Position numbers and translations under genes: made by a program
Shown here: in pieces, positions 19,999 to 60,052 of the stretch
How positions within the stretch are numbered: the stretch's first letter is position 1
How the letters are laid out: the number at the start of each line of letters is the position of its first letter
Origin: a virus
IMG/VR virus record: IMGVR_UViG_3300042691_014897
Location: 33,239 to 97,238 of that record
Length of the DNA: 64,000 bases
Strand: one strand, 5' to 3'
The notes under the pieces: generated by a model
Told to the model about the DNA's origin: nothing
Databases searched by the model: none
Seen by the model: only the letters and a program-made list of their open reading frames with translations

Positions 19999-20724
19999 TT
20001 ACTGGTTAGCAATAGTTACAGTTGTATCTAAAACAGCTGAACCAAATGTCCATTTAGCAGTTGTGCCGCTGGCAAACTGTGTTCCTGCTGAACTTGATCC
20101 GCCGTGTGCATTTGCTGTTGGAACTAGAACTGCTTTACGAGCAGTTAATTTCTTAACAAGGTATGTGCCGCCTGCGCTGTCAGTTGCCATAATTGACATT
20201 TCGCCGGCTGATTTAGATTCAGTTGTTACTAGTGTAAAGAAACCAGTACCTTGAGATGTTTGAACTTTATAACGCTTAGAACTTTCTTGTTTAATAATGT
20301 CGCCGGTAGTAATTTCGCTGTCGCCTGAACCGTATTGTGTTTCACACTTAATACCGTTCTGACGAGCAGATGTACTAGATGTTAGTGTTGCTACTGGTGT
20401 AGAACTACCTGAAGCAGATCCGCCTGTAATACTGCCGTTAAATGTAATTGTTGGAGCACTTGTATATCCTGAACCTGCTGATACAACACTTACTGTATAT
20501 GTTGTTGCACCGGTTACAACTACTTGTAAAACTGGCTTTGCGCCGCCGGTTATGTCTGGGGCAGTAATACTTGCCGCAGGAATTGTAAATGTTCCTGTTT
20601 CTAAATCAGCTAGTGTACCTGCTGGTGCGGTTACGCTGGCAACGCTTTCGCCACCAACATTTGCTGTGCCAAAATCTTGATAGTTTGTATTGGCAAAATA
20701 TTTTTTGTTTAATGGACGTCCCAT
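19999..20724 (-). CDS. probable virion structural/decoration protein, 241 aa
   Basis: 241 aa, AAGGAG site upstream. It starts GRPLNKKYFANTN. At about residues 81-96 it has one copy of the GSGYTSAPTITFNG-type repeat that occurs many times in the giant adhesin. The C-terminal half (KQESSKRYKVQTSQG, GTYLVKKLTARKAVLV) is basic and beta-rich. It is the first gene after the capsid gene terminator, with its own late-type box and structured leader. That arrangement suggests high late expression, as for an abundant surface or decoration protein. The product is not a recognised T4 homologue, so the role is inferred. Confidence 0.6.
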   Translation of the reverse strand: MGRPLNKKYFANTNYQDFGTANVGGESVASVTAPAGTLADLETGTFTIPAASITAPDITGGAKPVLQVVVTGATTYTVSVVSAGSGYTSAPTITFNGSITGGSASGSSTPVATLTSSTSARQNGIKCETQYGSGDSEITTGDIIKQESSKRYKVQTSQGTGFFTLVTTESKSAGEMSIMATDSAGGTYLVKKLTARKAVLVPTANAHGGSSSAGTQFASGTTAKWTFGSAVLDTTVTIANQ

Positions 20725-20759
20725 TTGTTTTCTCCTTAAATATGACGTTCTAGGTCTAC

Positions 20760-20796
20760 GCAGAGGGATTCTGCATAAGTCTTGCTACAAGGCAAG
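20760..20796 (-). other. structured 5' leader of the 241-aa structural gene
   Basis: Two hairpins lie between the late box and the gene: GCAGA/TCTGC with a 5-base loop (20760-20774) and CTTGC/GCAAG with a 6-base loop (20781-20796). The layout parallels the leader at 13278-13354. Message stabilisation is a reasonable but untested role. Confidence 0.4.
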
Positions 20797-20810
20797 CTCA
20801 TATTAGACAT

Positions 20811-20879: not shown

Positions 20880-22046
20880 TTACTTGAAAGAAACGTTGCT
20901 TAGGCTTACGCGACCTAAGTAGTCAGCGGCGTTACCTAGAGATGAAGCTGTGTTTGTTAGCTCAACATAACCATAACGTGTCATGAATGATACGACTGGT
21001 TCGAATGTTGATGGATCTAACACAACACCAGAGCTCATTAGAGGAATGTATGGGCAGTAGAATGCAGCCGCATCACTCTCGCTTGAACCTTTGTAACCAA
21101 CTAATACGTCTGTGCTGTCGCCAGCGTATGTGTTTACATAAACCTTCATAGCGTTGTTTAATGTACCAACAAACTTAGTGTTTGTAGGTGCTTCAAATGT
21201 GCCTTCAGTTGTACGTGCAAATGCTGAAGTAGTAGCAGACTGTAGAACAGTCAATGCGTATGGGCTAACAACTGCCCAGTTACCAGCACCACGACGTGTA
21301 CGCTGAGCGATCAAGTTGCTAACACGATTGATCTGAACAGCCAATGCGGCATGCTCGTCACCAACGAATGTAGCTGTACCTGAAACTGCGTTCTGGTCGA
21401 AAGCTTCAACTGCTGAGCCAGCTAAACTGTATAGAGAATTTAGAATCTCTTGATCAATTTCAGCTGTAATTTCTTGTGCTAGAGCAGCCATGATTTCTGC
21501 TTCGATGTCAATGCCTTGTTGAGCTTGTGCATCTTGAGCAGCCTCAAATGTCCAGCGAGCTGATAACTTACGTGTCTTAGCTTCAACTGTTTGCTTGAGG
21601 ATTTGAATGCTCATCTTCTTACCAGCGGCACCTTCTAGGCTAGCTGTTGAGGCAGCACGACCTGTTGTAGCACCTGAATAAGATTCAGCAATCTTGAATG
21701 GGCTTAGTGCCTCTTCACCTGCTGTTACTGTTACAGAACCTGAAGAATCAGTTTCAGCGTAACGAACACGTAAAGTATGGATTTGACCCACTGGTCCAGT
21801 CATTGGCTGTACGCCAACCAACTCGTTAGCAATAACGGTTGGCATAACACGACGGATCACTGGGAGGATCACGCGGTTTAGGGTTGCAACGTTGCCGGCA
21901 GAAGTAGAACCTGCTGTAGCTGATTCTGAAAGATACTTGCGAGTATTCTCTAAAGTAACTCCCATTACGCTACGCTTGGTACCTTGTAGGCCTTCTAATA
22001 GAGCCTCTTTGGTTTCCGCCCAACGGCCGTTTAGTAGTTCAGACAT
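20880..22046 (-). CDS. 23: major capsid protein (gp23-like)
   Basis: 388 aa, strong AAGGAG site. N-terminal residues show the helical gp23-type leader (LLNGRWAETKEALLEG) followed by TLNRVILPVIRRVMPTVIANELVGVQPMTGP, the conserved entry into the T4 capsid fold. The C-terminal part with VLDPSTFEPVVSFMTRYG is also typical. T4 gp23 has 521 residues, so this one is compact. A plausible gp21 maturation site is LSE followed by S at residues 39-42; T4 prohead protease prefers cleavage after a Leu-x-Glu type sequence. The gene follows scaffold gp22 and protease gp21 and is closed by a terminator, which is the usual T4-like order. It forms the hexameric lattice of the head. Confidence 0.95.
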   Translation of the reverse strand: MSELLNGRWAETKEALLEGLQGTKRSVMGVTLENTRKYLSESATAGSTSAGNVATLNRVILPVIRRVMPTVIANELVGVQPMTGPVGQIHTLRVRYAETDSSGSVTVTAGEEALSPFKIAESYSGATTGRAASTASLEGAAGKKMSIQILKQTVEAKTRKLSARWTFEAAQDAQAQQGIDIEAEIMAALAQEITAEIDQEILNSLYSLAGSAVEAFDQNAVSGTATFVGDEHAALAVQINRVSNLIAQRTRRGAGNWAVVSPYALTVLQSATTSAFARTTEGTFEAPTNTKFVGTLNNAMKVYVNTYAGDSTDVLVGYKGSSESDAAAFYCPYIPLMSSGVVLDPSTFEPVVSFMTRYGYVELTNTASSLGNAADYLGRVSLSNVSFK

Positions 22047-30758: not shown

Positions 30759-30776
30759 ATATTCCTCGCAGTTCAA

Positions 30777-30784
30777 TATTTATA
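30777..30784 (-). promoter_or_regulatory. late promoter TATAAATA for the 296-aa gene
   Basis: Exact TATAAATA on the minus strand, 18 bases before the ATG at 30758, leaving a short leader that just contains GAGGAAT. A perfect 9-bp inverted repeat (30792-30812, CAGATTGAC and GTCAATCTG) ends 8 bases upstream of the box. Confidence 0.7.
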
Positions 30785-30886
30785 CTATTATCAGATTGAC
30801 TACGTCAATCTGCTCTTCGCTATCGCTCGAGCTTTTTTAGATCTTAGATAATAATCAACAAACATCATGAACGCGAAGCGTTTTAG

Positions 30887-30962
30887 CATTATCCAGATTG
30901 TTCAGCCACACTTCGCCCGTTTCCGGGCGAAAAAAACATTATCCGAGTTGAACAATGCCACA
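30887..30962. repeat. two direct repeats with inverted 8-bp cores around a hairpin
   Basis: Copy 1 (30887-30910) reads CATTATCC, AG, ATTGTTCA, GCCACA. Copy 2 (30937-30962) reads CATTATCC, GAGT, TGAACAAT, GCCACA. The outer parts repeat directly but the 8-bp cores are reverse complements, so they can pair around the perfect hairpin at 30912-30931. The arrangement is visible directly; function unknown. Confidence 0.6.
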
Positions 30963-31060
30963 TAGCGTTAGGGCATTACAGAGGCGGTCATCCGGTACCT
31001 CGAGCCCCGTCTTCATAATGACGGCGGCACACAAATATACGCTAACATACTTGTGTACGT

Positions 31061-31082
31061 GCAGGTTTTCCCTGCTCTTTTT
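31061..31082 (+). terminator. possible plus-strand terminator
   Basis: GCAGG and CCTGC arms with a 5-base loop, followed on the plus strand by TCTTTTTA. No plus-strand gene ends nearby. It could stop read-through from the gp26/gp51 unit, which has no terminator at 29875. The stem is short, so the call is weak. Confidence 0.35.
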
Positions 31083-31249
31083 ACCTATACATATTCTTTT
31101 CAAACAGCAAAATCGCAGGTTTTAAGCGATCTTCATCCATTACGGGTAGTTGCTGAGTACTCTTTGCGGCGAGAGATTTCCGTCCCTGCGATCCGAGATC
31201 CAGGTATAAGGGTGCCCGATATTGGCCGGCACTGAGCCCAAAAACCGCT

Positions 31250-31696
31250 TTATTTTGCCTGTTTTTCTTGAGCCTTGAGTATATGCGAGCCGTGTACTCT
31301 TACTTGAATATGGCCGTTATACCAGTCTTTTGATTCTAGTACTCGATGGGTAAATTGTTCGCGGGCCTCTATATAACTGCATTCTGCTTTGCTAGAACAG
31401 TAAAAAAGTATGTCTCTACGAAAGTTTTCTGTGCCTAATTCCGCAATATCTTTGCTTAGTTCCGGGCTTGATCCATAATAGTCACGCCAGTCACTGTCAA
31501 TTTTACTGCGAATTTTCTTTTTCTTTTTGTTGCCGTTCTTGAGTTTTACAGTTTTATATGTGGTTTTACTAAATTTGGCTAGTTTTTTGCCTATGTATCG
31601 CCTGCCGCTGATGAGGTTGGTGATGATATAAACAAAGCCTACGCAATCTTCAGGGAGTGTTTCGACTTGTTCATTATTGTAATACCATGTCATCAA
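31250..31696 (-). CDS. GIY-YIG nuclease-like protein, 148 aa
   Basis: 148 aa. Residues 21-38 read FVYIITNLISGRRYIGKK, a clear GIY-YIG core (VYI and YIG elements). A lysine-rich insert follows at about 49-64. The later DYYGSSPELSKDI and ECSYIEAREQFTHRVL segments, with Glu candidates, fit the rest of the small GIY-YIG fold. In T4-like phages such proteins are homing-type (Seg) or related repair nucleases. It is small, lacks an obvious separate DNA-binding domain, and is the last gene of the operon, overlapping the SGNH gene by 4 bases, so it looks like an integrated operon member rather than a recent insertion. Two ATG codons are adjacent; the first overlaps the upstream stop. Confidence 0.75.
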   Translation of the reverse strand: MMTWYYNNEQVETLPEDCVGFVYIITNLISGRRYIGKKLAKFSKTTYKTVKLKNGNKKKKKIRSKIDSDWRDYYGSSPELSKDIAELGTENFRRDILFYCSSKAECSYIEAREQFTHRVLESKDWYNGHIQVRVHGSHILKAQEKQAK

Positions 31697-44800: not shown

Positions 44801-45342
44801 TTCCTCCTAGTTCTTTAGAATTATATGATTTAGTTTCTTCGAACTTAAATCTTGTTAAAGCTATCAGCGATGAGATTATTTTTCATCCGGTGAGTTATAA
44901 AGTCTTATTCGGATCTTCTGCCACTGAGGATGTTCAAGCTAGTTTTAAAGTTATTAAAAATCCTAATCGTGTTGTGTCTGACAACGATATTAAAACTAGA
45001 GTAATCACTGCTATCGAAGAATTCTTTACATTAGAAAATTGGGATTTTGGAGATACATTTTATTTTACAGAACTTTCAACCTACGTAATGAGTCAACTAA
45101 GCCCTGACATTTCTAGTTTTGTTATAGTACCTAGATTGGGTGGTTTAGGGTTTGGAAGTTTGTTCGAAATTAAATCTGCAAGCGATCAATTGTTTGTCAA
45201 TGGTGCGACTGTTGACGATATTGAGATAATACAAGGTATAACTGCTACATCGATTAAATCGATTTCAGGCACTACTGTAGATTCAACAGTGTCAGAACAG
45301 CAAAATGTAACAAGTTCGAATTACGGAGCAAATAATGGCTGA
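41878..45342 (+). CDS. 6: baseplate wedge protein (gp6-like)
   Basis: The ATG at 41878 (1154 aa) is chosen because TTAGGA precedes it; the longer frame begins with TTG at 41860 inside the promoter. T4 gp6 is 660 aa, so this is large. The N-terminal 130 residues (SFRNADFQSYDFENLRRTM, IESSEYLALIDLIAFLGQSIAFRVDLNARDNFLELAERRESVLRLARMLSYNP) match the gp6 family. The middle holds the baseplate J-like fold. The extra mass lies in beta-rich segments at about 560-900. gp6 forms the ring that links wedges. Its last 8 bases overlap the next gene. Confidence 0.9.
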   Translation: MSVTTRQNRLLIAEDWKKIYQSFRNADFQSYDFENLRRTMIDYIRQNYPEDYNDYIESSEYLALIDLIAFLGQSIAFRVDLNARDNFLELAERRESVLRLARMLSYNPKRNIAATGLLKFTSVTTTENVIDSNGRNLSGQIITWNDPSNSNWYDQFIKVINAGFSKTQQFGNPSDKATIYGIPTEQYRFQSLGESAPVFGFTKTVAGRPMSFEVVSTSFSGQTYIYEEQPKLGNKISCIYRDDGRGPSSSSSGFFMKFVQGELNTGTFTISQPGTNESIDIDAQNINNTDVWLYKLDKDGNEDVLWTPVSNFEANNIIYNSVNKSIRSIYSVITRNNDAVSLQFSDGTFGDLPLGTFRVYYRISNALEYTINTQDIRNISISFPYISNTGQQETLSVTMNLASSVSNATAAETNEDIKANAPATYYTQNRMITGEDYNITPLSSSSQIAKVKAVNRTSSGISRYFDLSDPTGKYSSTILFANDGVVYREEFKSSSRFSYQNKTDIEGIIYNQIFDILKDPNLKNFYYANFIVFITSSLDIIWNNITSDSNLSTGYVSSGDTIFKVGTFTSNDLKYLRSGCLIKFSAPEGKYFDTKNSNRLVTGSATVAGAETVLWAEAITVEDDGTAAGTGVNSDGFGPITLNRIIPQGSIITQIIPRWRTVIETSTIATMVDLIFSNKPFGLRYDSENQQWKIVFELNLDARNNFSLGKQGDQTNQRQDASWLLLFTTDNEYYTVTARIQRYVFESDKEIRFYFDSSNKVYDSKNNAVIKDTIKFLSVNTQPENTLAFTNDKVWDIVSEYIGLDGYVDTKKIIIAFGDSDDNGVVDNPEMFNELVIPASGNISLQNKYIVLEKYIISAGQEDYQYVDNSSGLVTILGTKPTSYSVSDNGKYFYFVDTNTVCKLDVTLSNPWIPTLDYKIYIGRDNLKFQYNHNADYESRIDPGVSNIIDIFVLTKSYDTRFRQWINGSIVNKPLPPSSLELYDLVSSNLNLVKAISDEIIFHPVSYKVLFGSSATEDVQASFKVIKNPNRVVSDNDIKTRVITAIEEFFTLENWDFGDTFYFTELSTYVMSQLSPDISSFVIVPRLGGLGFGSLFEIKSASDQLFVNGATVDDIEIIQGITATSIKSISGTTVDSTVSEQQNVTSSNYGANNG

Positions 45343-48300
45343 GAGTAAGAAAATAAAAAACTTAAAAACAACAGCAACTGATTTATTACCTCGTTATTTT
45401 AAAACAGATGCTAATAAAAAGTTTTTACAGGCCACTATAGATCAGTTAATACAACCGGGTACTGTTAAAAAAGTAAACGGTTATATCGGTCGCCAAAATG
45501 CAAAATCAGCCGTCGGCTCTGATATTTTTATTACTGCTTCGACAAAAGATAGACAAGATTACCAATTAGAACCAGCTCTTACAATTAAAGACTCTATCGG
45601 TAATAATGTATTTTTCAAAGATTATCAAGACTATATTAACCAATTGTCTGTATTCGGATCAAACACAAAAAATCATAATAGATTAAATCGCCAAGAATTT
45701 TATTCTTGGAATCCGCATATCGACTGGGATAAATTTGTTAACTTTCAAAATTATTACTGGTTACCGTATGGCCCAGATACTGTAAGAATATTTGGCCAAC
45801 AAGAAAATATTATAAGTTCATATAAAGTAGATTTACAATCCGAAACTGATAATAATGTTTACGTGTTCAGCCCAGACGGTGCTACACAAAACCCTACTTT
45901 AAAATTGTTTAGAGGACAAACTTATAGATTTGAAATTAACAGTCCAGGAAATCCATTTAGTATTAAGACTGCAAGATCTCCCGAATCATTTGATCGATAT
46001 ATTAATCCTGGTGTAACTGGATATGCTGTAGAAAATGGCGTAATTGAAATTACTTTACCATATAATAGTCCGGATATTCTTTATTATGTGAGTGAAACAG
46101 ATATCGATCTCGGCGGAGTTTTTCAAGTAGAATCTATCGAGGAAAATACAGTTTTAGATATTTCGACAGATATTTTAGGAAAGAAAGAATACGTATTATC
46201 AGACGGAACAAAATTAAGCAATGGAATGAAAGTTTCATTTGTGGGCAATGTCAGTCCTGCTGAGTATTCTGTTGGACAATATTATGTAGAAGGTGTTGGT
46301 AGGTCTATCCGTCTTGTAAACGAAAAAGTTTTAGAACTAATTAGTACCTATACTAATCAACAATCTGTACCGTTTGATTCCGGAAAATTTGACAGCCAGC
46401 CTTGGGACGATGCTATTTCATTCGCTGGAAAATCTGATTACATTGTTGTTAACCGTGCTAGTACCGATAGGAATCCTTGGAGTCGATATAATCGTTGGTT
46501 CCATAAAGATGTCATTGAGAAAAGTGCAACTTATAACAATAAAGTAGCTTCTATAGATCAATCAGCTAGAGCAACTAGACCTATTATCGAGTTCGAACCA
46601 AATATTAAACTTTATAATTTTGGAACTAGAGCCCTCGGCGATGTAGATGTGATTGACGATTATACTGTTGATGTTTTTTCTATGGTAGAAGGCCAGCTAG
46701 GATATAACGTTGACGGAATTCAACTAGCTCAAGGTCAGCGTGTGTTGTTTACTGCTGATACCGACAGACTAGTTAGGAACAGAATTTATAAGGTTGATTT
46801 TTTATTACTCGACGGCGTACGAAAAATACATTTAGTAGAGCAAGAGCTACCAGTTACAAACGATCTAGTATTGATCCGCCAGGGGAATAAGAATAAAGGA
46901 CAGATGTATTGGTATGATGGAGATCAATGGAATCTAGGTCAGCAAAAAACTTCAGTAAATCAATCTCCTATGTTCGATGTATTTGACGAAACTGGACATA
47001 GCTTTGGAGATAAAACTGTTTATGACGGATCGACATTTAAGGGAACTAAACTCTTTTCTTATAAGCAAGGAACAGGTGCTAACGACGCAACTTTAGGATT
47101 TCCATTGTCTTATAAAAACATAACCAATATTGGGGATATTGTTTTTAATTTTAATTTAGCAACTGATAAGTTTCAATACAAAGATATAGTTGATATCAAA
47201 GATAAACAAATTAAAGTAGGTTATCTTTTTAATTATGAAGATACTGACGCTGGATATATTAACGGTTGGACTACAGCCCGTACATTTGATGTACAACCAG
47301 CAGTAAGAATTTATAAAAATTCTAACAAATTTAATAATTTTAATATCGATATTTTTGATGATATCGATAGTTTAGGCGATCTTCGAGTTAAGGTATTTGT
47401 TAACGGATTGTTTGTACAACCTGCCGACTATACAATCTCAACGAGTGGTCGATATAAAACAATTATTTTAAATAATGACATTCTAGATTCAGACGTTTTA
47501 ACAATCAAATGTTATTCTAACCAACCTATTAATGAAAATGGTTATTACGAAGTTCCTATAAATTTACAAAATAATCCATCTAATAACGATATAGGAGATT
47601 TTACTCTTGGAGAAGTTATTGATCATGTTGGATCTATTGTAGAAAATTTAGAAAATTTCGAAGGGCAGTTTCCAGGACCAAATAATCTCAGAGATTTAGG
47701 CGGTGTTTCTGATCTCGGAACTAAGTTTGTTCAACACAGCGGCCCGATGAGCTTGGTCTTGTATCATGTAACATCCGATACAAATAACATTATCAGAGCC
47801 ATTGAATCGTCTAGAGAAGACTATAATAAATTTAAAAGAAATTTTGTTTCAGTAGCAGAAAATCTTGGGATTGATACTGACCCGGTAGAGTTAGTAAATC
47901 TAATTTTACAAGAAATTAATAAAGATAAACCAAAGTCAAGTCCTTACTATTTTAGTGATATGATCCCATACGCTGGCGGAATCAAAACTGAACTAACAGT
48001 AATTGACTATAGAATAAAAACATATCCTTTAACAAATAATTTTAATTTAGATACATTATCAAATAAGGCAGTTATCGTTTATCTTAATGACAACCAACTA
48101 CTGTATGAAAAAGATTATACATTTAGTGATCAGGGATTTGTTGTTATTTCTGCAGAATTGCAAAACGATGATAAAGTTACAATATGGGAATTTGAAAATA
48201 CTAATGGATGCTGTGTTCCACCAACACCAACTAAGTTAGGTATTTGGCCAAAATATGAACCTAAAAAGATTTATGATACCACGTTGGTAAATCCACGGTG

Positions 48301-51300
48301 GATGATACAGGGCCACGACGGTAGCTTAATATTGGCCTACAATGATTACAGAGACGATTTAATATTAGAATTAGAAAAGAGAATTTTTAATAATATTAAA
48401 ATTAAGTACGATTCTAACATATTTGATGTACAAGATTTAATTCCGTCTTTTAATAAGAGTAATAGATATTCGCTGTCTGAATTTAATGAAGTCCTCTCAA
48501 TAAGTTTTTACCAGTGGTCGGGACTTGTTAGTAAAGATTTTACTAAACCGCTTGGTTATTCTAGAGATAATAGTCTTACTTTTAACTATAAAGAATTACC
48601 GGCATTAGACGGTTCTTCGCCTCTTCCGGGATACTGGAGAGGTGTCTATCAGTGGATGCTAGGAACAGATAGGCCGAACCTTTGTCCTTGGGAAATGTTA
48701 GGTTTTTCTATAGAGCCAAGTTGGTGGCAAGAAGTATATGGTCCTGCTCCATATACTAGCGACAATTTAATAATGTGGGAAGACATAGCCGATGGGCTAG
48801 TAAAGCAACCTAATTCACCAACGGTGTATGTAGAAAAATACAAGAGGCCATATCTAAAAGGAAGAATACCGGTAGATCAAGATGGAAATATTATTAGTCC
48901 ATTAGATTCTGGTTTAGCTCTAGGACCGATCACAACTAGCACAGCTAACGATTTTGTATTCGGAGACCAAAGTCCTGTTGAGACTGCTTGGCGAAGAAGT
49001 AGTTATTATCCGTTCAGTGTAATGGTTGCATCAATGTTGTTGCAGCCAGCAACTACCTTAGGAACTCTTTTAGATAGGTCAAGAATTGTTAGAAATTTAG
49101 CAGGGCAGTTGATTTATAAAGATACTGGAGTTAGAATTACAGCCAGCGACATTGTATTGCCTAGCATCTATTCTAGCACTTCTAATATTAAATCTTCTGG
49201 AATTATTAATTACATTGTAGATTATATCCTTAGTGACAATTTAAGATCTTATACTGAGTATCAATATAATTTAAAAAATATTCAAGCTAAACTATCGTAC
49301 AGAATAGGATCTTTTAGCAGTAAAGAAAAATTTAAGTTACTATTAGATAGTAAAACACCTTTAAGTCAAAGTAGTGTATTTGTCCCTCAAGAAGATTATG
49401 AGATTATTCTAAATTCGTCTAGTCCTATCAAGAAGATATCATATAGCGGAGTAGTTATTACGAAGGGTGCTGACGGTTTTTCAGTAAAAGGTTACAGTAA
49501 AACTCAACCATACTTTAAATATTATCCAGCTACTAATCTTGGTTTACTAATAAACATCGGCGGCATATCTGAGGGATTTGTTGAATGGACTTCTCAGTCA
49601 ACATATTCTTCTGGTAAAGTAATATTTTACAATAATAGATATTACAGATCAAAAGTTTTACATACAACATCAGATACATTTGATTCTAAATATTATCAAT
49701 TACTACCGTCTCTTCCTCTAATTGGTGGTCGAGATGCTTATATACGAACAGAATGGGATAGGACCGAGGAAATCGTAGTTCCATACGGAACTAGATTTAG
49801 AACAATTCAAGAAGTTGTTGATTTCCTTTTAGGATACGGCGAATATTTGAAAGACCAAGGATTTATTTTTGATGACTTTAATGCAGAATTAAATGCTATA
49901 ACTAATTGGGAAACTAGTGCTAAAGAATTTTTATTCTGGACTACACAAAACTGGAGCACCGGCGAAGACCAATGGGACGACTGGAAGCCAAATGAATTTG
50001 TACCTGTAGGTAGTGTTGTAAAGTACGCCGGCGATTATTATAAATCAGTAGTTACATCGGATCCTTCAGAAGTTTTTCAAGAAGATAATTTTGTTAAACT
50101 TGACGGACTAAGTGACATTGGAAGTGCTGTAATAAGCCTAAGTCCAGCCGCAATTAAATTAACTTTCGAAGCACCGTTAAGTGTAGTCGACGACATTCGT
50201 AATTCTTTTAATGGTTACGAAATATTTAAAGTTGACGGAACACCGATACAACCTAATTTTTTAAATAATTATAGAGAAGATAATGCAGTAAGTTATACAC
50301 CAACTGAAGACGGTATATATGGTGCAACTTTTTATCTCGTGCAAAAAGAACAAGTTGTTATTCTTAATAATTCAACTTTGTTCAACGATACAATTTATAA
50401 TCCTGAAAGCGGATATAGACAAGAAAAAATTAAAGTATCCGGGTATGTTAGTAGCGAATGGAACGGATCGTTCAACATTCCAGGATTTATCTTCGATCAA
50501 GCGAAGATCGATGATTGGGAGTCATGGAAAGATTATGCGCTAGGCGACATTGTAAAATATAAGCAATTTTATTATTCTGCTTCTCGATTTATTCCTGGAG
50601 AGGAGTCGTTTGATAATAACAAGTGGATTAAGTTAGATCAAAAACCTACTCCGCGATTATTACCTAACTGGACATATAAAGCCGAGCAGTTTACAGATTT
50701 TTATAGTTTAGATAGCGACAATTTTGACGGAGATCAGCAGGCAGTAGCACAACATTTAGTTGGATATCAAAAGCGTCAATATCTAAGTAACATTATTAAA
50801 GACGACGTTAGCGAATTTAAGTTTTATCAAGGAATGATAGTTGAAAAGGGAACACAAAATGTTCTTAATAAACTATTTGATGTTCTGAGTGCCGATGATA
50901 AAGAAAGCGTTGATTTTTATGAAGAATGGGCATTACGTACCGGGCAGTACGGTGCAAGCCAGGCATTTGAAAACATCGAATTTATAATTGACGAATCTGA
51001 TGTAAAAAATAATCCCCAAGGATACGAGCTAGTTAATCAAATTGACACATCATTGGTTGACTTTATAGTAAGACAGACCCCTAATGAAGTGTATCTTAAG
51101 CCAGTAGGATACAGCAATAGTCCGTGGCCTGTTGCAGAAGATAAGCCGTCATTTTTAAGAACACCGGGATATGTAAGACCTAGCGATGTTAAGTATTCAT
51201 TTGTGTCGCTCGATCAAGTAATTAGTACTGATATTACTGATTATGTTGAAGGTGATTATGTTTGGGTCGGATTCGAAGGCAGAGAATGGAATGTCTATAG

Positions 51301-54300
51301 ATACAGTCGATTAGAACAAACAGTTGTCGATGCTGCCTATTCTACTAATGACAAGTTATTAACATTGGTCTTAGACAAGAATACTTCAGTACGCATAGGT
51401 GATATCATCGGAATAGATCAAGTATCTACCTTTCCAGGATTTTATAAAGTTGTTGATATAGACTTAAAGAAAATTATTTTATCAGCACCGTCTATTACTA
51501 ATTTTAGAACACCGTTTACTGAACAAAATAAGATAGTAATTTCAACATTTTATTCTTATAGGGTAAAAAATGTTGTTAATGGTAACGGGTCAATTGACTA
51601 TGCTATAGATAGGGCAGACCAAGTACTAAAGACTGCACCAAACAACGGTGAACTACTTTGGATTGACGACAACGGAAATAATAAATGGATGACATGGCAG
51701 TATAATCCAATTTACTCTTTAGATGAAATTATTAATACTGCTCCGCAAGAAGGTCTTTCATATGGAAGAAGAATTGTATTAAATCCTGGCGCTAATATTA
51801 CTGCTATTTCTAATGACCTTGGCGAAGTAATTATATATGATAAAGCCGGACCAGTTGCACCGTGGCTACAAAGACAAACAATAACTGTTCCATTTATATC
51901 TAAGAATACTGGTTTCGATGATAATGCTACGCCTGCGAGTTTAACCGGTGATGTTATAGCTATCTCCGGAGACAGTAGGTGGTTAGCAACTGGAACACCG
52001 TTGGCAAATAATGTGTCTTCTAGATTGAAATATGTAGGAGGTTCTCCTCTGTGGTCTTCAGTGACAAGCTATGCTGTAGGCGATATAGTAATTTATAATT
52101 CTAAACCTTACCAAGCACAGTTTATTGTTGGCCTTCCTGCAAATTTAAATAAGAATCCAGAAACTCAAACAAATTTCTGGAAGGAAATTTCTTATATTCC
52201 AGTTGGTGAAGATTCTTTATCAACAAACTCTAATTTAACAAAACAAGGTGTTGTTTCGATATACGAAAAAGATGCGAATAATATCTTTACGTTAGTTGCT
52301 ACGATTGTTAGCCCGCATCCGTTGAATAATGAAAAATTTGGATCAAGTCTTGCATTCGGTAGTGATACTTTATTAGTCGGTTCCGAAGGATTCCAGAACG
52401 ACACAGGTAAAGTTTATAGATTAACCTATAAGACAACTATCGAAGCCACTACAAACTATAACCCAGTTGGTAGTTCTGGACAGACATTAGTTGTGTCAAG
52501 TACTGCAAATATACGAGCAGGTATGCATGTGCTAGGAAATGGTTTCACTACACAATATGTAGCACAGGTAGTTAATTCTACAACATTAATATTAAATGCC
52601 CCCCCTGATTCAGATCCAAGTACAATATTATCATTTACTGTAACCGGTTGGAGATACGATACTAGTATAGTAGTCGGCGAGCCATTGCAGTCTGGAAGTA
52701 GGTTTGGTACATCTACTATAGTAAGTAAAGATAATTCAACGCTTTTAGTTTCTGCACCAGGCGGCGTCTATGATAATAATAGTGAAAATTTATCAGTCGA
52801 AGGTGACGAATTAATTAAGATACCCGGAAAAGTTTTCGTCTATAAGTTAGCTTCTGGGCAATATTCTCTTTATACTGTTCTAACTAACGGATCACCAGAT
52901 TACGGTACTTCAATTACAGTTTCTAACACTGGGCAATATATTGCAGTTTCTTCTATTTTTGATGATAAAGAAACGATAGATCAAGGAACAGTTATTGTCT
53001 ACAAGGACAACGGCACTGGTTATTCTCAATATCAGGAGTTATACAATCTTGATCCCGAAACTGCTGAATTCTTCGGCTCAAAAATATCTTTTATGAATGA
53101 TTATGATACATTAGTTGTTTATAGCGAAGGTTCAGACACTAAAACAACAATGACGATCGATTTAGGATCAACAACATTTGATAATAACTTGACAAAAATT
53201 GTTGATGTCGCTGAGGATAGCGGTCGAATCGATGTATATGACAGGTATGGTAGCAAATGGATATTCAGTGAGAGCCTAGTAAATGGACAAGATATTTCTA
53301 CAGGATATAGTACAGGTTTAGCTGTAGGATCTGACGTTATCTTAGTCGGAGCTCCATATGCCCTTGACCAAGGACTTAGCTCTGGTAGAGTACACGAATA
53401 TAGAAAACCAATAGGGAAATTTAGTTGGTCAGTCTTGCATCAAGAAACAGATAGAATTGATTTATCAAAGATTAAACGAGCATTCTTATACGATCGAAAC
53501 ACTAATAAATTAGTATCTTATCTTGATGTCATTGATTCTACACAAGGCAGAATTCCAGGCCTTGCTGACCAAGAAATTAGATATAAAACTTTTTACGATC
53601 CTGCAATTTATTCAGTTGGAAACTCTACAGTAAAAATTGACGAAGGAATGGCTTGGGGTAAAGCACAAGTAGGAACTCTCTGGTGGGATTTAAGAACTGC
53701 TAAATTTTACGACAGTCAAGATAATGATCTAGTATATAGGAATAGTACTTGGAATACATTGTTCCCGGGAGCAAGCGTTGATATCTACGAATGGGTAGAA
53801 ACAACATTAACACCTTCTCAGTGGAATAGCAGAGCAGATACAGACGAAGGGCTAATAACAGGTGTTAGCGGCACTACTCTTTATGGTAACGATGTTTATG
53901 GTTTAATTAAAAAATATGATTCTGTCGCTAAAACATTTAAGAACACTTATTATTATTGGGTTAAGAACAAGAAAACTATTCCAAATGTCAACTTTAGAAA
54001 AATCCCTGCTAATGATGTAGCAGAATTAATTTCTAACCCTAGGGGGTATGGTTACAAATATCTTGCATTAACAAGTCCTAATTCGTTTAGTCTTGTTAAC
54101 GTTAAGCCTTTGCTTCAGGATTCAAATATTGTTTTATCCGTTGAATACTGGACCGGGAATTACGATAATAAAAACATTCATAACGAATGGAAAATTATTA
54201 GTAACAATCCAAATTCTTCGATTCCTCGTTTCATTGAAAACAAATGGTTTGACAGTTTATGCGGTAAAGACGAGGCAGGTCGACTAGTCCCAGATACTAC

Positions 54301-57300
54301 ACTACCTCCAAAAATAAAATACGGCATAGAATTTAGACCAAGACAGGGAATGTTTGTTAATAGATTTGAAGCATTAAAACAGTTTATCGAACAAATAAAT
54401 CTTGTTCTAATTAATAATCTGATCGTAGAGAGATCTGATTTATCAAGCATAGAACAATTTGAAAAAGAACCTTCGGAGATATCGGGTCTGTACGATTCGG
54501 CAATTGATTCTGAAGAAGAATTACGATTTACGAATATTGGAACATACGAAAAGGCAGTACTAAAACCGATTATTAATGATGGAAGAATAACAGGAATTGA
54601 TATTGTACAAAGAGGTAGAGGATATTTAATTGCTCCTTATTTGACAATTAGCGGTACTGGCACCGGTGCAGTAGTTCGATCAGTCCTTGATACTCGAGGG
54701 AGAATTACCGGAGTTGAAATTATTTCTCAAGGAGAGGGATACTCTGATCAAACAACAGTTACAGTTAGAAATTATTCTATACTAGTACACAGTGATAGTA
54801 CAGCGTACGGCAATTGGAGCATATACTCATATGAGCCTCTATCTTTAACTTGGTCAAGAGTACAAACACAATCGTATGACGTAAGAAATTATTGGTCATA
54901 TGTAGATTGGTATGCTCCGGGCTACAATCAATTTACTGCTATCGATTTTTCTGTAAGCTCCTTTGTAGACCTAAATAATTTAAAGACAGATATTGATCAA
55001 ATAGTTAAGATTAGAACTACTAATAACGGAACTTGGTTGTTATTAAGAAAGTATGCCGAGTCGACATCAGTTGACTGGACACAGAGCTATGAAGTAATTG
55101 GTAGCGAAAAAGGAACAATACAGTTTAATTCTAATTTGTATAGCTTCTCAAATACACAATATGGTTTCGATGCTTCGCTTTATGACTCATCGATATTTGA
55201 TAATTCTGCTTCGATAGAATTGCGAATTATTTTAAATGCAATTAAGAACAATATTCTTACAGACGACCTAAAACAATCATATCTTGATTTATTCTTTAAT
55301 AGCGTAAGATATGTATTAAGCGAACAGAACTATGTAGATTGGATATTTAAAACTAGTTTCGTTAAAGCTAAACACTCAGTCGGCGAATTAAAACAAAAAG
55401 TCACATACAATAATGACAATCTTGAAAACTTTGAAGATTTTATCAACGAAGTTAAGCCATATAGAACTAAGATAAGAGAATTTATTAGTTCATACGACAA
55501 AGTTGATAATTCTTTATTGTCAACAACTGATTTTGATTTACCAGCGGTATTTGAAGATGGTGCAATAACTCCGATAGATGTAGTCGTTAGAAACGGTATA
55601 GTACAAACTAATTCCAACAAATTATTAGAATATCCATGGAAGCATTGGTACGATAATTTAGGATATAATATCACGTCAATAGTTGTTTCGTCGCAAGGCG
55701 CCGGATATGTAAGTGAACCTGTTGTAAGAATAATCAGCAATTCCGGATCCGGCGCTCGTGCCAGAGCGTTTATAACTAACGGAAAAGTTACAAGAATATC
55801 TTTAATTAATCGTGGTTCAGGATATCTTGATGCTCCTGTAATCGTCCTCGAGGGAGGTCTTGGTACAACTGGAGTACAGGCTAGGGCCGTGGCTATTATA
55901 GGTGACGGCGTTATTAGAAATAATCACATCGGAATAAAGTTTGACAGACTAACACAACGTTATTTTATTACAAGTTTGCAAGAAACTGAAACTTATTCTG
56001 GTAGTGTTGCAGTTTCTGGTTCTAGACTACAGTTTCCTCTAAAGTGGGCACCTGATATTGTTAATACATTTGCTAATAATGTTAAACTTGGAATCGAAAC
56101 CGTTACAATAAATGATGTAGAAGTATTAAAATCAGATTATAAATTATCAACTGTTAAATCTACATCCAGAGGTTATACAAGTTATAGTGGTCTATTAACA
56201 TTTGACGTTGCACCTGCAAGAGGATCTACAGTTAAAATTAACTATACTAAAGATTGGTCAGTCCTTAATGCGGCTGACAGAATTCAATATTATTATGATC
56301 CAGTAGCCGGAGAGCTCGGTAAAGAGCTAGGACAGCTAATGACCGGAGTCGATTACGGTGGTGTCAACGTTACCGGACTATCATTTGAAGTTGGTCAGGG
56401 ATGGGATAGTGTACCGTATTATACAGACAAATGGGATAGCTCAGACACTACATTTAGCGATTATATTGTAACTGTTGCTGCCAATACACATAGCTTCACC
56501 CTGCCATATGTTCCTCCTAACGGAACAGAAATGAACGTTTATTATTCTAGTAAGAATATTGAAACTTATCCCGGTGACGGATTCACAAAAATTTATAATT
56601 TTAACATTTTAAATATCTATCCGCCAACAGTTAGAGTAGAAACTACAGTTGAATTTGATGATACAGCTACTACTAATGTTGAAGGTAGCAATACAATTAC
56701 CTTAGTAAGTGTTAATAACATTCAAGTCGGTGACATAGTAACAATAATTCCAGATGTTGAGAAAACTATTGGTTTAGACACTAAGGTAATAGAAGTCAAT
56801 ACTATTAACAAAACAGTTAAGCTAGATCAAATATTGTTTAAAGACATCGAAACAGGAACTTCTGCTGTGTTTACAAGAACGCTAGTAGATCCTATAGATT
56901 GTACTATAAATTCTAATGGAACAGTATTTTTAAATGATGCAGTCCCAACAGGTAGTAATATTGTTATAACAGCATTTTTTGATCCTGTTCGATTAGACGA
57001 TCCTTATTATAATAGCAAAACATCGGCTCAAGAAACATTAGCCGATGCTCAAGAAGTATTAACTACGAAAACTAATGAATATTATACATTAGTAAACAGT
57101 GAAGTAGATTTACAGGAACAACTTGAATCTCTTACTGACGAAATTTATCAACTACAAACGGAATTAAATGCATTAAATGTCATTATCGATGGACTTGATC
57201 CAAGCAATCCTCTATACATTGAATCAGTTAACCGTATAAATGATTTAGTGAATACAGAAATTCCTGCGGTACAAGATCAAATAGATTCAGTAAGTAATGA

Positions 57301-60052
57301 TTTATCAAATCTTGATCAAGATATTGCAGATAAGTTAGCTGAAAAGAATCATGCACAGATAGAAGTAAACATCGCTCAAGATACATACGACTCTATTCCA
57401 GTGTTGTTGAATTCTACAGCTATCATGCAAACTATTATATCTGATGGAATACCTGATGATTTAGTTAATCCTACATATAAAACTTTTAGTATTCCATCAA
57501 CATTTACAGTACTCGACGGCGACAGATTTATATGGCGCAAGAGTACTAGCGACGGATCAATCGTTCCACAAGATACTGATTATGATACTGCTCTAAGCGG
57601 TGGAAATTTAGCATACTCAACTGCTACAGGATTAGCTGCCGATGATATCTTAGTTGATGGCGACGGATTTGTTACTCCTACATCGAGCCCTGCTCCTGAA
57701 GAAGTAGTTCCGGGACAAATTGTCGATGCTGTTGCGATTAAAGTCTACGATAGGCCAAGCGCCGGTTCGGCAAATATTAAAGTAGATAGCTATATCGCCG
57801 ATGGAGTAACGAAAGAATTTGCTGTTAGCCAACAACCAAATAGTCCTTCGGCATTAATTGTTAAATTTACCACCGGTGAACGAGATGAAATTACCGACGA
57901 GCTGGTTTCTGTTTCATCGATTAAATCTCTAGGAGAAGATTTCACTTTCGATTATTCTAATAGATTAGTAACTTTAAACGAAGCACCTCCTGAAGGAACG
58001 CTAGTTTCTATTTTTAGTTTTGAATTTAACGGTTCTAAGATATTAGACATTAACTATTTTATCGGAGACGGTGTTCAGACCGAGTTTGTTACTAATGCTC
58101 CATATGTAGATAATATAACATATCAAGTATATGTCGATGGACAACCAGCACAACCTGGTAATCCTGCGTTGTTCGAAACAGATTTATCTTATGAGTCACC
58201 AGGTAGAGTTGGTCTTTATTTTAGTGTACCTCCAGCGAACGGATCTCTAGTAAATTTCATTCTCATTAGCGGTAATGAAAGAACATATTCGATTGCCACA
58301 ACTGAAAAGTTTCCGGGTAATGGCGGATCGTTATACGATTTGTACTATGTAGTAGGTGATATTGTTCCTGTTGAATCAAGTATGCTTGTTCGCGTAAATC
58401 AAAGAATCTTAAAAGCACCTAACAGCAGTTATTACACTATTGAGCCTGGGATTGTAGAATATTTTATCGATCCTGCAAAATATTTGCCTTATAGCATTTC
58501 TACAGATGACATTGTTGTATTAGCTGATAGTCAAGTATTAAATGGTGGTGTTGATTATACTGTTGAATTAAGTAATATTAGTATTGTCTTAAATGAATAT
58601 GTAGCACAAAACTACATAGGAAAAAAATTAATTATCGCAGTACGTCGAGATCAAGAGTACACTTATGTACCTCCGACTGAGACAGAAGGGCCAAAAATAC
58701 AATTTATAGAGAATTTTGATCCTTCGGATAGTATTGAAGTTATTAGTTTTTATAAACATGACATCCTAGACATCCAGAGATCGAGAATTCGAATATCTTC
58801 TAATTTATCGTTGACTCCTGATACTCCTGAATACTATGAATACAGAGGACTAACAGGCGGCCTAATACAATTAGATCGATCAGTTCTTGATGAAAGTTAT
58901 GTTTGGGTAGTTAAAAATGCTAGTCTTTTAACACCGAGTGTTGATTACAAATTAAACAAGGATAGACACAGTATTAAATTAGCTTTACCTGCAAAGATCG
59001 ATGATGACTTTACTGTTATTACGTTTAGTAGTAATGTTTTAACGTCGGGTGTGTCTTATATGCAGTTTAAGGATATGCTTAACAGAGTTCATTTTAAGAG
59101 ATTAAACGCAGATAAGAGAACTCGTTTAGTAAAACCACTATCTTATACAGATACTACAATTGAAGTAGAAGATGCAAGTAATTTTGATTTACCAAGCACA
59201 GCAAATAACAAACCTGGTGTAGTTGAAATCAGAGGCGAAAGAATTGAATATTTTAGTATCAGCGGAAACGTATTAGGACAGTTACGTCGAGGAACGCTTG
59301 GTACTGGAGTTCCATCACTGCATCCAGTTAACAGTTACGTTCAGGATATAGGGGCTAGTGAAACATTACCTTATGTTGAAAGTTCAGTAATTGACCAAGT
59401 TAAAGCTGACGGCACAGAAAATGTAGGTTTATCATTCGTTCCTGGAAACTTTGACACTTCTTGGAGATATCAGGGTAGAGCCATGACAGCACAAGAAGCA
59501 ACAGGACTTGCTAAAAGCTCCATTGAAGCATTCGTTGGCGGATATAGTTCAGTTCCGTGGCAGTCAGGAGTATCTTATAAAGTCGACGATGTTGTTGAGG
59601 TTGGAACTTATACATATAAATGCGTTTTAGCACATACAAGTTCGGATAATTTTAAATCTGATTCGACTAAGTGGTCTTTCTTTGTTGGAAATATAAGACT
59701 GAAGAAAGACAGTTATTCTGTTCATAGCGTTGCAATTCATCCAGAAAGTCCCGAAGGCGATGTTGTATTAGACGCTGACTTTACAGTTGATAATCAAACA
59801 GCAAGTTTAACATTAACTAACAATTTAAAACTTGGTACTAGGGTTACTGTTGTAAAAAGAACAGGAACCGACTGGGATTCTGTAACTAGTATTTTAGATG
59901 AAGATAATAAGATTTCGAGATTCCTAAAAGCGGCGCCTGTAGTATGGTATGCAACTATAGGTAAATATGACAGTACTTTAGGTGATCCGAATACATTTGA
60001 TAGAGATGATGGAACATTTGATAGTACATCGATCACGTTTGATCAAGGATAA
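45335..60052 (+). CDS. giant baseplate wedge-position protein (gp7-position), 4905 aa
   Basis: 4905 aa in one frame, starting in the end of gp6; T4 gp7, in the same place, has 1032. The first 140 residues (KIKNLKTTATDLLPRYFKTDANKKFLQ, YSWNPHIDWDKFVNFQNYYWLPYGP) resemble N-termini of large wedge proteins in marine T4-like phages. Cys pair CC lies at about 959. Carbohydrate-binding-like modules lie near 1417, 1549, 1738, 2246 and 4744. Residues about 2190-2696 carry FG-GAP-type propeller repeats (FGSSLAFGSDTLLVGSEGF; VGSDVILVGAPYALDQG). Next come a DWIFKTSF plus NEVKPYRTKIREF segment (3206-3409), GxGY repeats, a long coiled coil (3892-4022) and an IRGERIEYFSI plus RGTLGTG element near 4628. No enzyme motif. 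Probably a baseplate and peripheral adhesion protein; its gp7 kinship is positional. Confidence 0.75.
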   Translation: MAESKKIKNLKTTATDLLPRYFKTDANKKFLQATIDQLIQPGTVKKVNGYIGRQNAKSAVGSDIFITASTKDRQDYQLEPALTIKDSIGNNVFFKDYQDYINQLSVFGSNTKNHNRLNRQEFYSWNPHIDWDKFVNFQNYYWLPYGPDTVRIFGQQENIISSYKVDLQSETDNNVYVFSPDGATQNPTLKLFRGQTYRFEINSPGNPFSIKTARSPESFDRYINPGVTGYAVENGVIEITLPYNSPDILYYVSETDIDLGGVFQVESIEENTVLDISTDILGKKEYVLSDGTKLSNGMKVSFVGNVSPAEYSVGQYYVEGVGRSIRLVNEKVLELISTYTNQQSVPFDSGKFDSQPWDDAISFAGKSDYIVVNRASTDRNPWSRYNRWFHKDVIEKSATYNNKVASIDQSARATRPIIEFEPNIKLYNFGTRALGDVDVIDDYTVDVFSMVEGQLGYNVDGIQLAQGQRVLFTADTDRLVRNRIYKVDFLLLDGVRKIHLVEQELPVTNDLVLIRQGNKNKGQMYWYDGDQWNLGQQKTSVNQSPMFDVFDETGHSFGDKTVYDGSTFKGTKLFSYKQGTGANDATLGFPLSYKNITNIGDIVFNFNLATDKFQYKDIVDIKDKQIKVGYLFNYEDTDAGYINGWTTARTFDVQPAVRIYKNSNKFNNFNIDIFDDIDSLGDLRVKVFVNGLFVQPADYTISTSGRYKTIILNNDILDSDVLTIKCYSNQPINENGYYEVPINLQNNPSNNDIGDFTLGEVIDHVGSIVENLENFEGQFPGPNNLRDLGGVSDLGTKFVQHSGPMSLVLYHVTSDTNNIIRAIESSREDYNKFKRNFVSVAENLGIDTDPVELVNLILQEINKDKPKSSPYYFSDMIPYAGGIKTELTVIDYRIKTYPLTNNFNLDTLSNKAVIVYLNDNQLLYEKDYTFSDQGFVVISAELQNDDKVTIWEFENTNGCCVPPTPTKLGIWPKYEPKKIYDTTLVNPRWMIQGHDGSLILAYNDYRDDLILELEKRIFNNIKIKYDSNIFDVQDLIPSFNKSNRYSLSEFNEVLSISFYQWSGLVSKDFTKPLGYSRDNSLTFNYKELPALDGSSPLPGYWRGVYQWMLGTDRPNLCPWEMLGFSIEPSWWQEVYGPAPYTSDNLIMWEDIADGLVKQPNSPTVYVEKYKRPYLKGRIPVDQDGNIISPLDSGLALGPITTSTANDFVFGDQSPVETAWRRSSYYPFSVMVASMLLQPATTLGTLLDRSRIVRNLAGQLIYKDTGVRITASDIVLPSIYSSTSNIKSSGIINYIVDYILSDNLRSYTEYQYNLKNIQAKLSYRIGSFSSKEKFKLLLDSKTPLSQSSVFVPQEDYEIILNSSSPIKKISYSGVVITKGADGFSVKGYSKTQPYFKYYPATNLGLLINIGGISEGFVEWTSQSTYSSGKVIFYNNRYYRSKVLHTTSDTFDSKYYQLLPSLPLIGGRDAYIRTEWDRTEEIVVPYGTRFRTIQEVVDFLLGYGEYLKDQGFIFDDFNAELNAITNWETSAKEFLFWTTQNWSTGEDQWDDWKPNEFVPVGSVVKYAGDYYKSVVTSDPSEVFQEDNFVKLDGLSDIGSAVISLSPAAIKLTFEAPLSVVDDIRNSFNGYEIFKVDGTPIQPNFLNNYREDNAVSYTPTEDGIYGATFYLVQKEQVVILNNSTLFNDTIYNPESGYRQEKIKVSGYVSSEWNGSFNIPGFIFDQAKIDDWESWKDYALGDIVKYKQFYYSASRFIPGEESFDNNKWIKLDQKPTPRLLPNWTYKAEQFTDFYSLDSDNFDGDQQAVAQHLVGYQKRQYLSNIIKDDVSEFKFYQGMIVEKGTQNVLNKLFDVLSADDKESVDFYEEWALRTGQYGASQAFENIEFIIDESDVKNNPQGYELVNQIDTSLVDFIVRQTPNEVYLKPVGYSNSPWPVAEDKPSFLRTPGYVRPSDVKYSFVSLDQVISTDITDYVEGDYVWVGFEGREWNVYRYSRLEQTVVDAAYSTNDKLLTLVLDKNTSVRIGDIIGIDQVSTFPGFYKVVDIDLKKIILSAPSITNFRTPFTEQNKIVISTFYSYRVKNVVNGNGSIDYAIDRADQVLKTAPNNGELLWIDDNGNNKWMTWQYNPIYSLDEIINTAPQEGLSYGRRIVLNPGANITAISNDLGEVIIYDKAGPVAPWLQRQTITVPFISKNTGFDDNATPASLTGDVIAISGDSRWLATGTPLANNVSSRLKYVGGSPLWSSVTSYAVGDIVIYNSKPYQAQFIVGLPANLNKNPETQTNFWKEISYIPVGEDSLSTNSNLTKQGVVSIYEKDANNIFTLVATIVSPHPLNNEKFGSSLAFGSDTLLVGSEGFQNDTGKVYRLTYKTTIEATTNYNPVGSSGQTLVVSSTANIRAGMHVLGNGFTTQYVAQVVNSTTLILNAPPDSDPSTILSFTVTGWRYDTSIVVGEPLQSGSRFGTSTIVSKDNSTLLVSAPGGVYDNNSENLSVEGDELIKIPGKVFVYKLASGQYSLYTVLTNGSPDYGTSITVSNTGQYIAVSSIFDDKETIDQGTVIVYKDNGTGYSQYQELYNLDPETAEFFGSKISFMNDYDTLVVYSEGSDTKTTMTIDLGSTTFDNNLTKIVDVAEDSGRIDVYDRYGSKWIFSESLVNGQDISTGYSTGLAVGSDVILVGAPYALDQGLSSGRVHEYRKPIGKFSWSVLHQETDRIDLSKIKRAFLYDRNTNKLVSYLDVIDSTQGRIPGLADQEIRYKTFYDPAIYSVGNSTVKIDEGMAWGKAQVGTLWWDLRTAKFYDSQDNDLVYRNSTWNTLFPGASVDIYEWVETTLTPSQWNSRADTDEGLITGVSGTTLYGNDVYGLIKKYDSVAKTFKNTYYYWVKNKKTIPNVNFRKIPANDVAELISNPRGYGYKYLALTSPNSFSLVNVKPLLQDSNIVLSVEYWTGNYDNKNIHNEWKIISNNPNSSIPRFIENKWFDSLCGKDEAGRLVPDTTLPPKIKYGIEFRPRQGMFVNRFEALKQFIEQINLVLINNLIVERSDLSSIEQFEKEPSEISGLYDSAIDSEEELRFTNIGTYEKAVLKPIINDGRITGIDIVQRGRGYLIAPYLTISGTGTGAVVRSVLDTRGRITGVEIISQGEGYSDQTTVTVRNYSILVHSDSTAYGNWSIYSYEPLSLTWSRVQTQSYDVRNYWSYVDWYAPGYNQFTAIDFSVSSFVDLNNLKTDIDQIVKIRTTNNGTWLLLRKYAESTSVDWTQSYEVIGSEKGTIQFNSNLYSFSNTQYGFDASLYDSSIFDNSASIELRIILNAIKNNILTDDLKQSYLDLFFNSVRYVLSEQNYVDWIFKTSFVKAKHSVGELKQKVTYNNDNLENFEDFINEVKPYRTKIREFISSYDKVDNSLLSTTDFDLPAVFEDGAITPIDVVVRNGIVQTNSNKLLEYPWKHWYDNLGYNITSIVVSSQGAGYVSEPVVRIISNSGSGARARAFITNGKVTRISLINRGSGYLDAPVIVLEGGLGTTGVQARAVAIIGDGVIRNNHIGIKFDRLTQRYFITSLQETETYSGSVAVSGSRLQFPLKWAPDIVNTFANNVKLGIETVTINDVEVLKSDYKLSTVKSTSRGYTSYSGLLTFDVAPARGSTVKINYTKDWSVLNAADRIQYYYDPVAGELGKELGQLMTGVDYGGVNVTGLSFEVGQGWDSVPYYTDKWDSSDTTFSDYIVTVAANTHSFTLPYVPPNGTEMNVYYSSKNIETYPGDGFTKIYNFNILNIYPPTVRVETTVEFDDTATTNVEGSNTITLVSVNNIQVGDIVTIIPDVEKTIGLDTKVIEVNTINKTVKLDQILFKDIETGTSAVFTRTLVDPIDCTINSNGTVFLNDAVPTGSNIVITAFFDPVRLDDPYYNSKTSAQETLADAQEVLTTKTNEYYTLVNSEVDLQEQLESLTDEIYQLQTELNALNVIIDGLDPSNPLYIESVNRINDLVNTEIPAVQDQIDSVSNDLSNLDQDIADKLAEKNHAQIEVNIAQDTYDSIPVLLNSTAIMQTIISDGIPDDLVNPTYKTFSIPSTFTVLDGDRFIWRKSTSDGSIVPQDTDYDTALSGGNLAYSTATGLAADDILVDGDGFVTPTSSPAPEEVVPGQIVDAVAIKVYDRPSAGSANIKVDSYIADGVTKEFAVSQQPNSPSALIVKFTTGERDEITDELVSVSSIKSLGEDFTFDYSNRLVTLNEAPPEGTLVSIFSFEFNGSKILDINYFIGDGVQTEFVTNAPYVDNITYQVYVDGQPAQPGNPALFETDLSYESPGRVGLYFSVPPANGSLVNFILISGNERTYSIATTEKFPGNGGSLYDLYYVVGDIVPVESSMLVRVNQRILKAPNSSYYTIEPGIVEYFIDPAKYLPYSISTDDIVVLADSQVLNGGVDYTVELSNISIVLNEYVAQNYIGKKLIIAVRRDQEYTYVPPTETEGPKIQFIENFDPSDSIEVISFYKHDILDIQRSRIRISSNLSLTPDTPEYYEYRGLTGGLIQLDRSVLDESYVWVVKNASLLTPSVDYKLNKDRHSIKLALPAKIDDDFTVITFSSNVLTSGVSYMQFKDMLNRVHFKRLNADKRTRLVKPLSYTDTTIEVEDASNFDLPSTANNKPGVVEIRGERIEYFSISGNVLGQLRRGTLGTGVPSLHPVNSYVQDIGASETLPYVESSVIDQVKADGTENVGLSFVPGNFDTSWRYQGRAMTAQEATGLAKSSIEAFVGGYSSVPWQSGVSYKVDDVVEVGTYTYKCVLAHTSSDNFKSDSTKWSFFVGNIRLKKDSYSVHSVAIHPESPEGDVVLDADFTVDNQTASLTLTNNLKLGTRVTVVKRTGTDWDSVTSILDEDNKISRFLKAAPVVWYATIGKYDSTLGDPNTFDRDDGTFDSTSITFDQG

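Follow-up and report, generated by a model that had tools for sequence, protein, structure and literature searches.

A large structured phage RNA with Polynucleobacter-1 as its 5' domain and a pseudoknotted core resembling cow-rumen-2

The Polynucleobacter-1 motif (Rfam RF01718) was listed in a survey table under 'Burkholderiales, fresh water/estuary' with a tentative cis-regulatory mark (PMC2864571). GOLLD and ROOL are large phage-encoded RNAs of 650-800 nt with many pseudoknots, found near tRNAs, and in GOLLD a conserved 3' part is combined with a variable 5' part (PMC12286853). HEARO and the omega RNA of IscB are structured RNAs that adjoin a small nuclease gene. The cow-rumen-2 family (RF02947) reportedly originated in a 2017 survey.

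The RNA described here shares something with each of these. Its 5' domain is a full-length member of Polynucleobacter-1, but the 141 positions of the Rfam model stop before the core, linker, tandem motifs and 3' hairpins, and the RNA is found in phages, behind gp46 and SegE. Like GOLLD and ROOL it is large, phage-encoded and has many pseudoknots, and the division into a conserved 3' and a variable 5' part recalls GOLLD, but it is only about 450 nt long and lies behind gp46-SegE rather than near tRNAs. No covariance-model match to GOLLD or ROOL was obtained in the window, where only RF01718 and RF02980 reached their cut-offs; in the island no Rfam family other than RF01718 reached its gathering score, and no sequence relation to GOLLD or ROOL was seen. 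As with HEARO and omega RNA, a small nuclease gene adjoins the RNA, but the nuclease belongs to another family, the RNA also occurs without it, and no mobility was seen. The RF01718 match is itself already known; in the openly accessible literature searched, outside the 2017 survey from which RF02947 reportedly comes, we did not find RF01718 described as a fragment of a much larger phage RNA, nor a core common to RF01718 and RF02947, the fixed place behind gp46-SegE, exchangeable 5' domains or concerted 7-mers.

The island and its flanking genes

The window is a stretch of 64,000 nucleotides from a 97,238-bp IMG/VR virus record, with T4-type gp20, gp23, gp46, gp47 and late sigma factor present. 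Its longest gene-free gap extends from 30759 to 31249, other gaps seen being about 155 bp or less; the lower limit follows from the next gene on the minus strand, which probably begins at an ATG at 30758 with a GAGGA ribosome site and a late promoter ahead of it (Table 1). An earlier note had placed a GC-rich, hairpin-rich island at 30785-31249, and this proved correct to within a few bases, as there are no credible ORFs between the stop of the SegE-like gene (31250) and the next gene. The GC content of the island is 46.0%, compared to 38.2% for the window and 39.8-42.4% for the flanks, a value reached by only 1.7% of 465-bp windows, and the perfect 9-bp and 8-bp stems that had been reported are both present. 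The RNA lies directly 3' of an operon of gp47, gp46 and the SegE-like GIY-YIG gene, on the minus strand.

Table 1. Features of the RNA and its borders; positions are those of the window.
Feature	Position	Strand	Evidence or remark
Entire large RNA (about 458 nt), from 5' domain through linker, core and tandem motif arm to 3' hairpins	30792..31249	-	Conserved from segE stop to terminal hairpin; ends inferred from conservation
5' domain D1, RF01718 Polynucleobacter-1	31102..31237	-	114 bits, E 5.6e-24, cut-off 37
Pseudoknot 5' strand GCGG, partner hairpin loop CCGC 31166-31169	31245..31248	-	Column pair 2:84
Loop strand CCGC, partner of 31245-31248	31166..31169	-	Column pair 2:84
Core and arm D2, outside RF01718	30884..31077	-	Alignment A1; covariance model R1, 191.7 bits here
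Full-length RF02947 cow-rumen-2 match, sub-threshold	30955..31058	-	18.5 bits, cut-off 66
Helix H1, 12-bp hairpin, loop GUUAGCGU	31027..31058	-	12/12 pairs with changes on both sides, 93.2% paired
H3 5' strand inside H1 loop (pseudoknot), partner 30963-30968	31039..31044	-	6/6 pairs with changes on both sides, 96.9% paired
H3 3' strand	30963..30968	-	Same H3 pair counts
PK1 5' strand GUCA, partner 30987-30990 in H2b loop (pseudoknot)	31019..31022	-	99.2% paired; C-G/U-A and G-C/A-U swaps
PK1 3' strand UGAC	30987..30990	-	Same PK1 pair counts
H2 5' strand, partner 30970-30974	31004..31008	-	Inner pairs 100% paired, 4-5 pair types
H2 3' strand	30970..30974	-	Column-pair scan
H2b hairpin GAGG..CCUC, near-invariant loop UACCGGAUGACCG	30981..31001	-	100% paired, A-U/U-A swap
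Tandem motif A, ACUC+GGAUAAU	30938..30948	-	7-mer comparison with copy B
Tandem motif B, AUCU+GGAUAAU	30888..30898	-	7-mer comparison with copy A
8-bp GAAA-capped hairpin between tandem motifs	30912..30931	-	GCCC..GGGC hairpin kept in relatives
Terminal perfect 9-bp hairpin, no T run after	30792..30812	-	Sequence
T4-type late promoter TATAAATA of next gene	30777..30784	-	Sequence
SegE-like GIY-YIG protein, encoded upstream; not counted as part of the RNA	31250..31696	-	PF19835, 112 bits

The protein encoded at 31250-31696 falls under the label 'NAD synthetase' in PHROG 447 and in many GenBank records. This looks like a propagated mis-annotation, PF19835 (SegE GIY-YIG) being a far better name for the sequence.

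Architecture and covariation

The RF01718 match is 136 nt long, spans the full model (positions 1-141), begins 12 bases past the SegE-like stop and lies far above the gathering cut-off (Table 1), making the 5' domain a member of the family. RF01718 accounts for only the 5' third of the RNA, and the 194 nt that follow are the best conserved part of the 56-sequence alignment and contain at least two pseudoknots; it is H3 and PK1 that make the core pseudoknotted.

Alignments were made by MAFFT without structure. In D2, 88.9% of cells were paired compared to 73.6% after shuffling, the covariation score was 0.469 against 0.186, and 32 of 43 pairs had compensatory changes on both sides; none of 500 shuffles reached any of these measures. 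The values for D1 were 85.0% against 66.9% for pairing and 0.508 against 0.198 for covariation (0/500). As this pair-count shuffle test ignores the relatedness of the sequences, we also relied on pairs with four or five types and on a slide control, in which displacing the D2 structure by 1-3 columns reduced pairing to 34-45%. When all column pairs were scanned free of any structural assumption, the nested and knotted helices of Table 1 came out as the top signals, with H2 the strongest, and column pair 2:84 was 97% paired with GC, AU, UA and CG types in 102 RNAs. Many of the G-U cells would be A-C mismatches on the plus strand, so that the covariation fits the minus strand. The island also folds better than its dinucleotide shuffles (z = -2.75 for the minus and -3.64 for the plus strand), which by itself is modest evidence; the covariation in relatives is decisive. 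On this comparative evidence the island is a conserved structured RNA of the minus strand.

These results strongly support the suggestion of a structured RNA made in the earlier note, and two of the checks that it had proposed, folding against shuffled sequence and covariation in relatives, came out in favour of an RNA. Its two other suggestions, a replication or recombination site and a remnant of acquired DNA, found no support, the conserved entity being an RNA fold held at one syntenic position across many phages.

Two further pairings were considered and are not claimed: a helix H4 formed by the spacers before the two motifs was only 71.7% paired, and a pseudoknot GGCU:GGCC at the start of D1 was 43.5% paired in alignment A2, although column pair 13:25 does covary. 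A perfect hairpin of 7-8 bp, varying in sequence, occupies the place of the terminal hairpin in 62 of 65 relatives; the 3' end of the RNA is uncertain because no T run follows this hairpin.

Relatives in freshwater and rumen phages

Among 50 viral-contig records with SegE relatives, 38 contained RF01718, and in 36 of the 38 it lay -1 to +46 bases from the segE stop. The records without an RF01718 match still hold the D2 domain, as detected by covariance model R1, preceded by different 5' domains with no Rfam match. Of the 80 SegE loci from freshwater phages, nearly all have the RNA in this position. The conserved gene order runs gp47, gp46, a small ORF, SegE, the RNA and a variable gene, followed on the opposite strand by the baseplate hub gene. 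In a reciprocal sample gathered by the core RNA pattern alone, SegE was directly upstream in 69 of 75 assessable loci. The RNA was without SegE, or parted from it by another gene, in L147, L152, L072/L159, L026, L037, L057 and L181 (SegE being absent from L147 and L152, and the RNA displaced from it in L072 and L181); these exceptions show that the RNA also occurs where SegE is missing or not adjacent.

In L062, L052, L058, L074, L076, L079, L085, L092 and L095, the RNA after segE has a second type of 5' domain (ACUUGGGCGUCAAAGGCAAUUGCUAACUUAAGGCAACAAAUGG), highly conserved and with no Rfam match, which stands in for Polynucleobacter-1 before the same core. A third type follows segE in L024, L094 and L089, in which the core is strongly diverged and the tandem motifs are kept, both copies carrying their own 7-mer, ACAUGAA. 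One contig binned as Bacteroidetes (L137, CAINOI010000056.1) begins inside this RNA and, since a phage hub gene adjoins the RNA, looks like a mis-binned phage fragment. A match in a Verrucomicrobia MAG (L136) was discarded as a chance GC-rich 17-nt match. Searching viral contigs for an exact Polynucleobacter-1 pattern gave 19 matches, none of which was real.

DNA similarity searches of cultured phages and plasmids gave no real match, the cultured jumbo relatives by gp46 (Phosso, PA5oct, Atu_ph07 and Serratia BF) had no match to model R1, and the SegE relatives of the cultured phages examined were without the RNA. As no homologue was found in any cultured phage tried, nothing ties the RNA to a tested function. 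In Serratia phage BF (L265, 6190-6720) a gene-free gap of about 800 bp with a terminator-like end lies just behind gp46, flanked by an EndoVII gene and the baseplate hub region; it matches neither R1 nor Rfam and may represent a large RNA that is either unrelated or very diverged.

The sub-threshold RF02947 match in the D2 core recurs at the same place, with 10-23 bits, in about 20 related records, which are not independent, and these scores do not make the RNA a member of that family. A pattern of shared boxes retrieved 15 loci from viral contigs, and the 12 that were scanned comprised nine bona fide RF02947 RNAs (94-113 bits) and three with RF01718. An ordered-box expression found 33 freshwater and 13 cow-type loci and nothing in 14.4 Mb of shuffled DNA, and model R1 finds the cow-type sites, weakly. 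Both types have the same fold and the same order of boxes, namely a UUAGC-loop hairpin, GCCGCC, a short helix, a GUAC(A/C)GGAUGACCG loop and UAA, with the pairing equivalent to PK1 also visible in cow-type RNAs; they differ in the 5' domain and the 3' arm. We therefore claim, from the box pattern, its shuffled control and the R1 matches, that the island core is homologous to that of RF02947, and not that the RNA belongs to RF02947.

The cow-type RNA reaches well beyond its Rfam model and has its own conserved 5' domain. It was found in 53 stretches; one contig of 424 kb has four copies, and contigs of 411 kb and 415 kb have two apiece. No SegE was found in this context, and in L275, L276, L279, L284, L285 and L288 the RNA is opposite in strand to both neighbouring genes, which points to a stand-alone gene. 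In two virus-classed contigs a tmRNA gene lies near the cow-type RNA (L277, 4366-4722; L280, 4680-5036).

Tandem motifs and the probable role of the RNA

Near the 3' end of the freshwater RNAs the two motifs, ACUC and AUCU each followed by a 7-mer, are 47-59 bases apart. The two 7-mers were identical in 81 of 83 distinct RNAs, representing ten shared variants, compared to a shuffled mean of 18.7 and maximum of 33; where there was a choice, the motif picker took the pair that matched best, which introduces a mild bias, and the shuffled comparison used only the first six letters. Across 102 non-redundant RNAs, variable positions of one 7-mer matched its own copy at 97-98% identity, and no column within the RNA was a Watson-Crick partner for them; the idea that the 7-mers pair with each other or elsewhere in the RNA was rejected on this result. 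Given the concerted change with no internal partner, both probably bind one outside partner, recognition of both copies by a single partner being the simplest reading of these patterns. Gene conversion between the copies is an alternative source of identical 7-mers, but the adjoining CUC and UCU never become alike. Complements of the 7-mers were neither enriched in the window nor clustered in the loci, and the outside partner was not found by this route. The idea that they target repeated phage sites was rejected on the same grounds, the weak excess of complements in the flanks (80 against 57) having no positional clustering and being dominated by related loci.

We consider it likely that the island encodes a stand-alone phage RNA of roughly 450 nt that acts in trans. 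The comparative data show its fold to consist of a 5' domain that is exchangeable and is here Polynucleobacter-1, a strongly conserved core with multiple pseudoknots and a 3' arm with a short motif in two copies. It would be transcribed with the gp47-46-SegE operon, or from its end, ahead of the late promoter that serves the following gene. The core may serve as a rigid scaffold, and the two identical motifs may allow two-site binding of one outside partner, which could be an RNA or protein of phage or host, or a second molecule of the RNA itself. By analogy, the best reading is a trans-acting scaffold comparable to GOLLD and ROOL, which would work as those large ornate phage RNAs do and not as a switch for a neighbouring gene. 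A bolder proposal, to which we give an even chance, is a new superfamily of large trans-acting phage RNAs in which two orphan Rfam families are joined through one pseudoknotted core, with four or more exchangeable 5' domains (Polynucleobacter-1, cow-type, L062-type and L024-type) and with freshwater forms that bind one outside partner twice through co-evolving 7-mers, in effect an RNA machine with swappable modules. Two families that Rfam lists as small RNAs in their own right look like pieces of a single large RNA, kept under strong selection by lake and rumen phages, and the few large ornate phage RNAs gain a further candidate. With its single copy at an operon end in freshwater phages, its multiple stand-alone copies in the giant phages of the rumen and its concerted 7-mers, the RNA has a function that can be tested.

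It is unlikely that the RNA instead acts in cis, as a 3'-UTR or leader governing either the transcript of gp46-SegE or the gene after it through transcript stability, a switch or an attenuator. Its fixed position directly behind SegE, the lack of a strong terminator before the next gene and the possible cis-regulatory mark given to Polynucleobacter-1 in 2010 (PMC2864571) would fit such a role, but the RNA survives without SegE and no constant same-strand downstream gene was found: the next gene differs among phages and here has its own TATAAATA promoter. The cow-type RNAs, which share the core, occur in multiple copies and are antisense to both neighbours, also argue against cis-regulation.

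Still less probable is that the RNA is the partner of the SegE-like nuclease in an RNA-guided or RNA-carried cassette, as in IscB with HEARO/omega RNA. The GIY-YIG domain match, the two matched short motifs and the position of the RNA immediately 3' of the nuclease gene, in the 36 of 38 records and reciprocally in the 69 of 75 loci, are what such a cassette would predict; but the RNA is not always accompanied by the nuclease (L147, L152), is displaced from it in L072 and L181 and has no SegE in the cow-type context, while SegE relatives in cultured phages lack the RNA and the order gp47-gp46-SegE-RNA is fixed, not mobile.

A DNA-level origin, packaging or recombination site whose palindromes merely resemble RNA structure, although repeats and palindromes are present and both strands fold better than shuffles, is very improbable and already largely refuted by compensatory changes in knotted, far-apart helices, by the many G-U pairs on one strand only and by the occurrence of more than one copy, at unrelated positions, in the giant phages of the rumen.

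Elsewhere in the window, a freshwater-2 RNA (RF02980; 64.4 bits, cut-off 49.9) was found on the minus strand at 20722-20797. It lies in the 155-bp gap that separates the gp23 gene (20880-22046) from the gene after it (19999-20724) and is likely the leader of the latter, whose 241-aa product matched nothing in Pfam or PHROG. On the plus strand, 45335-60052 is a single ORF of 4905 aa.
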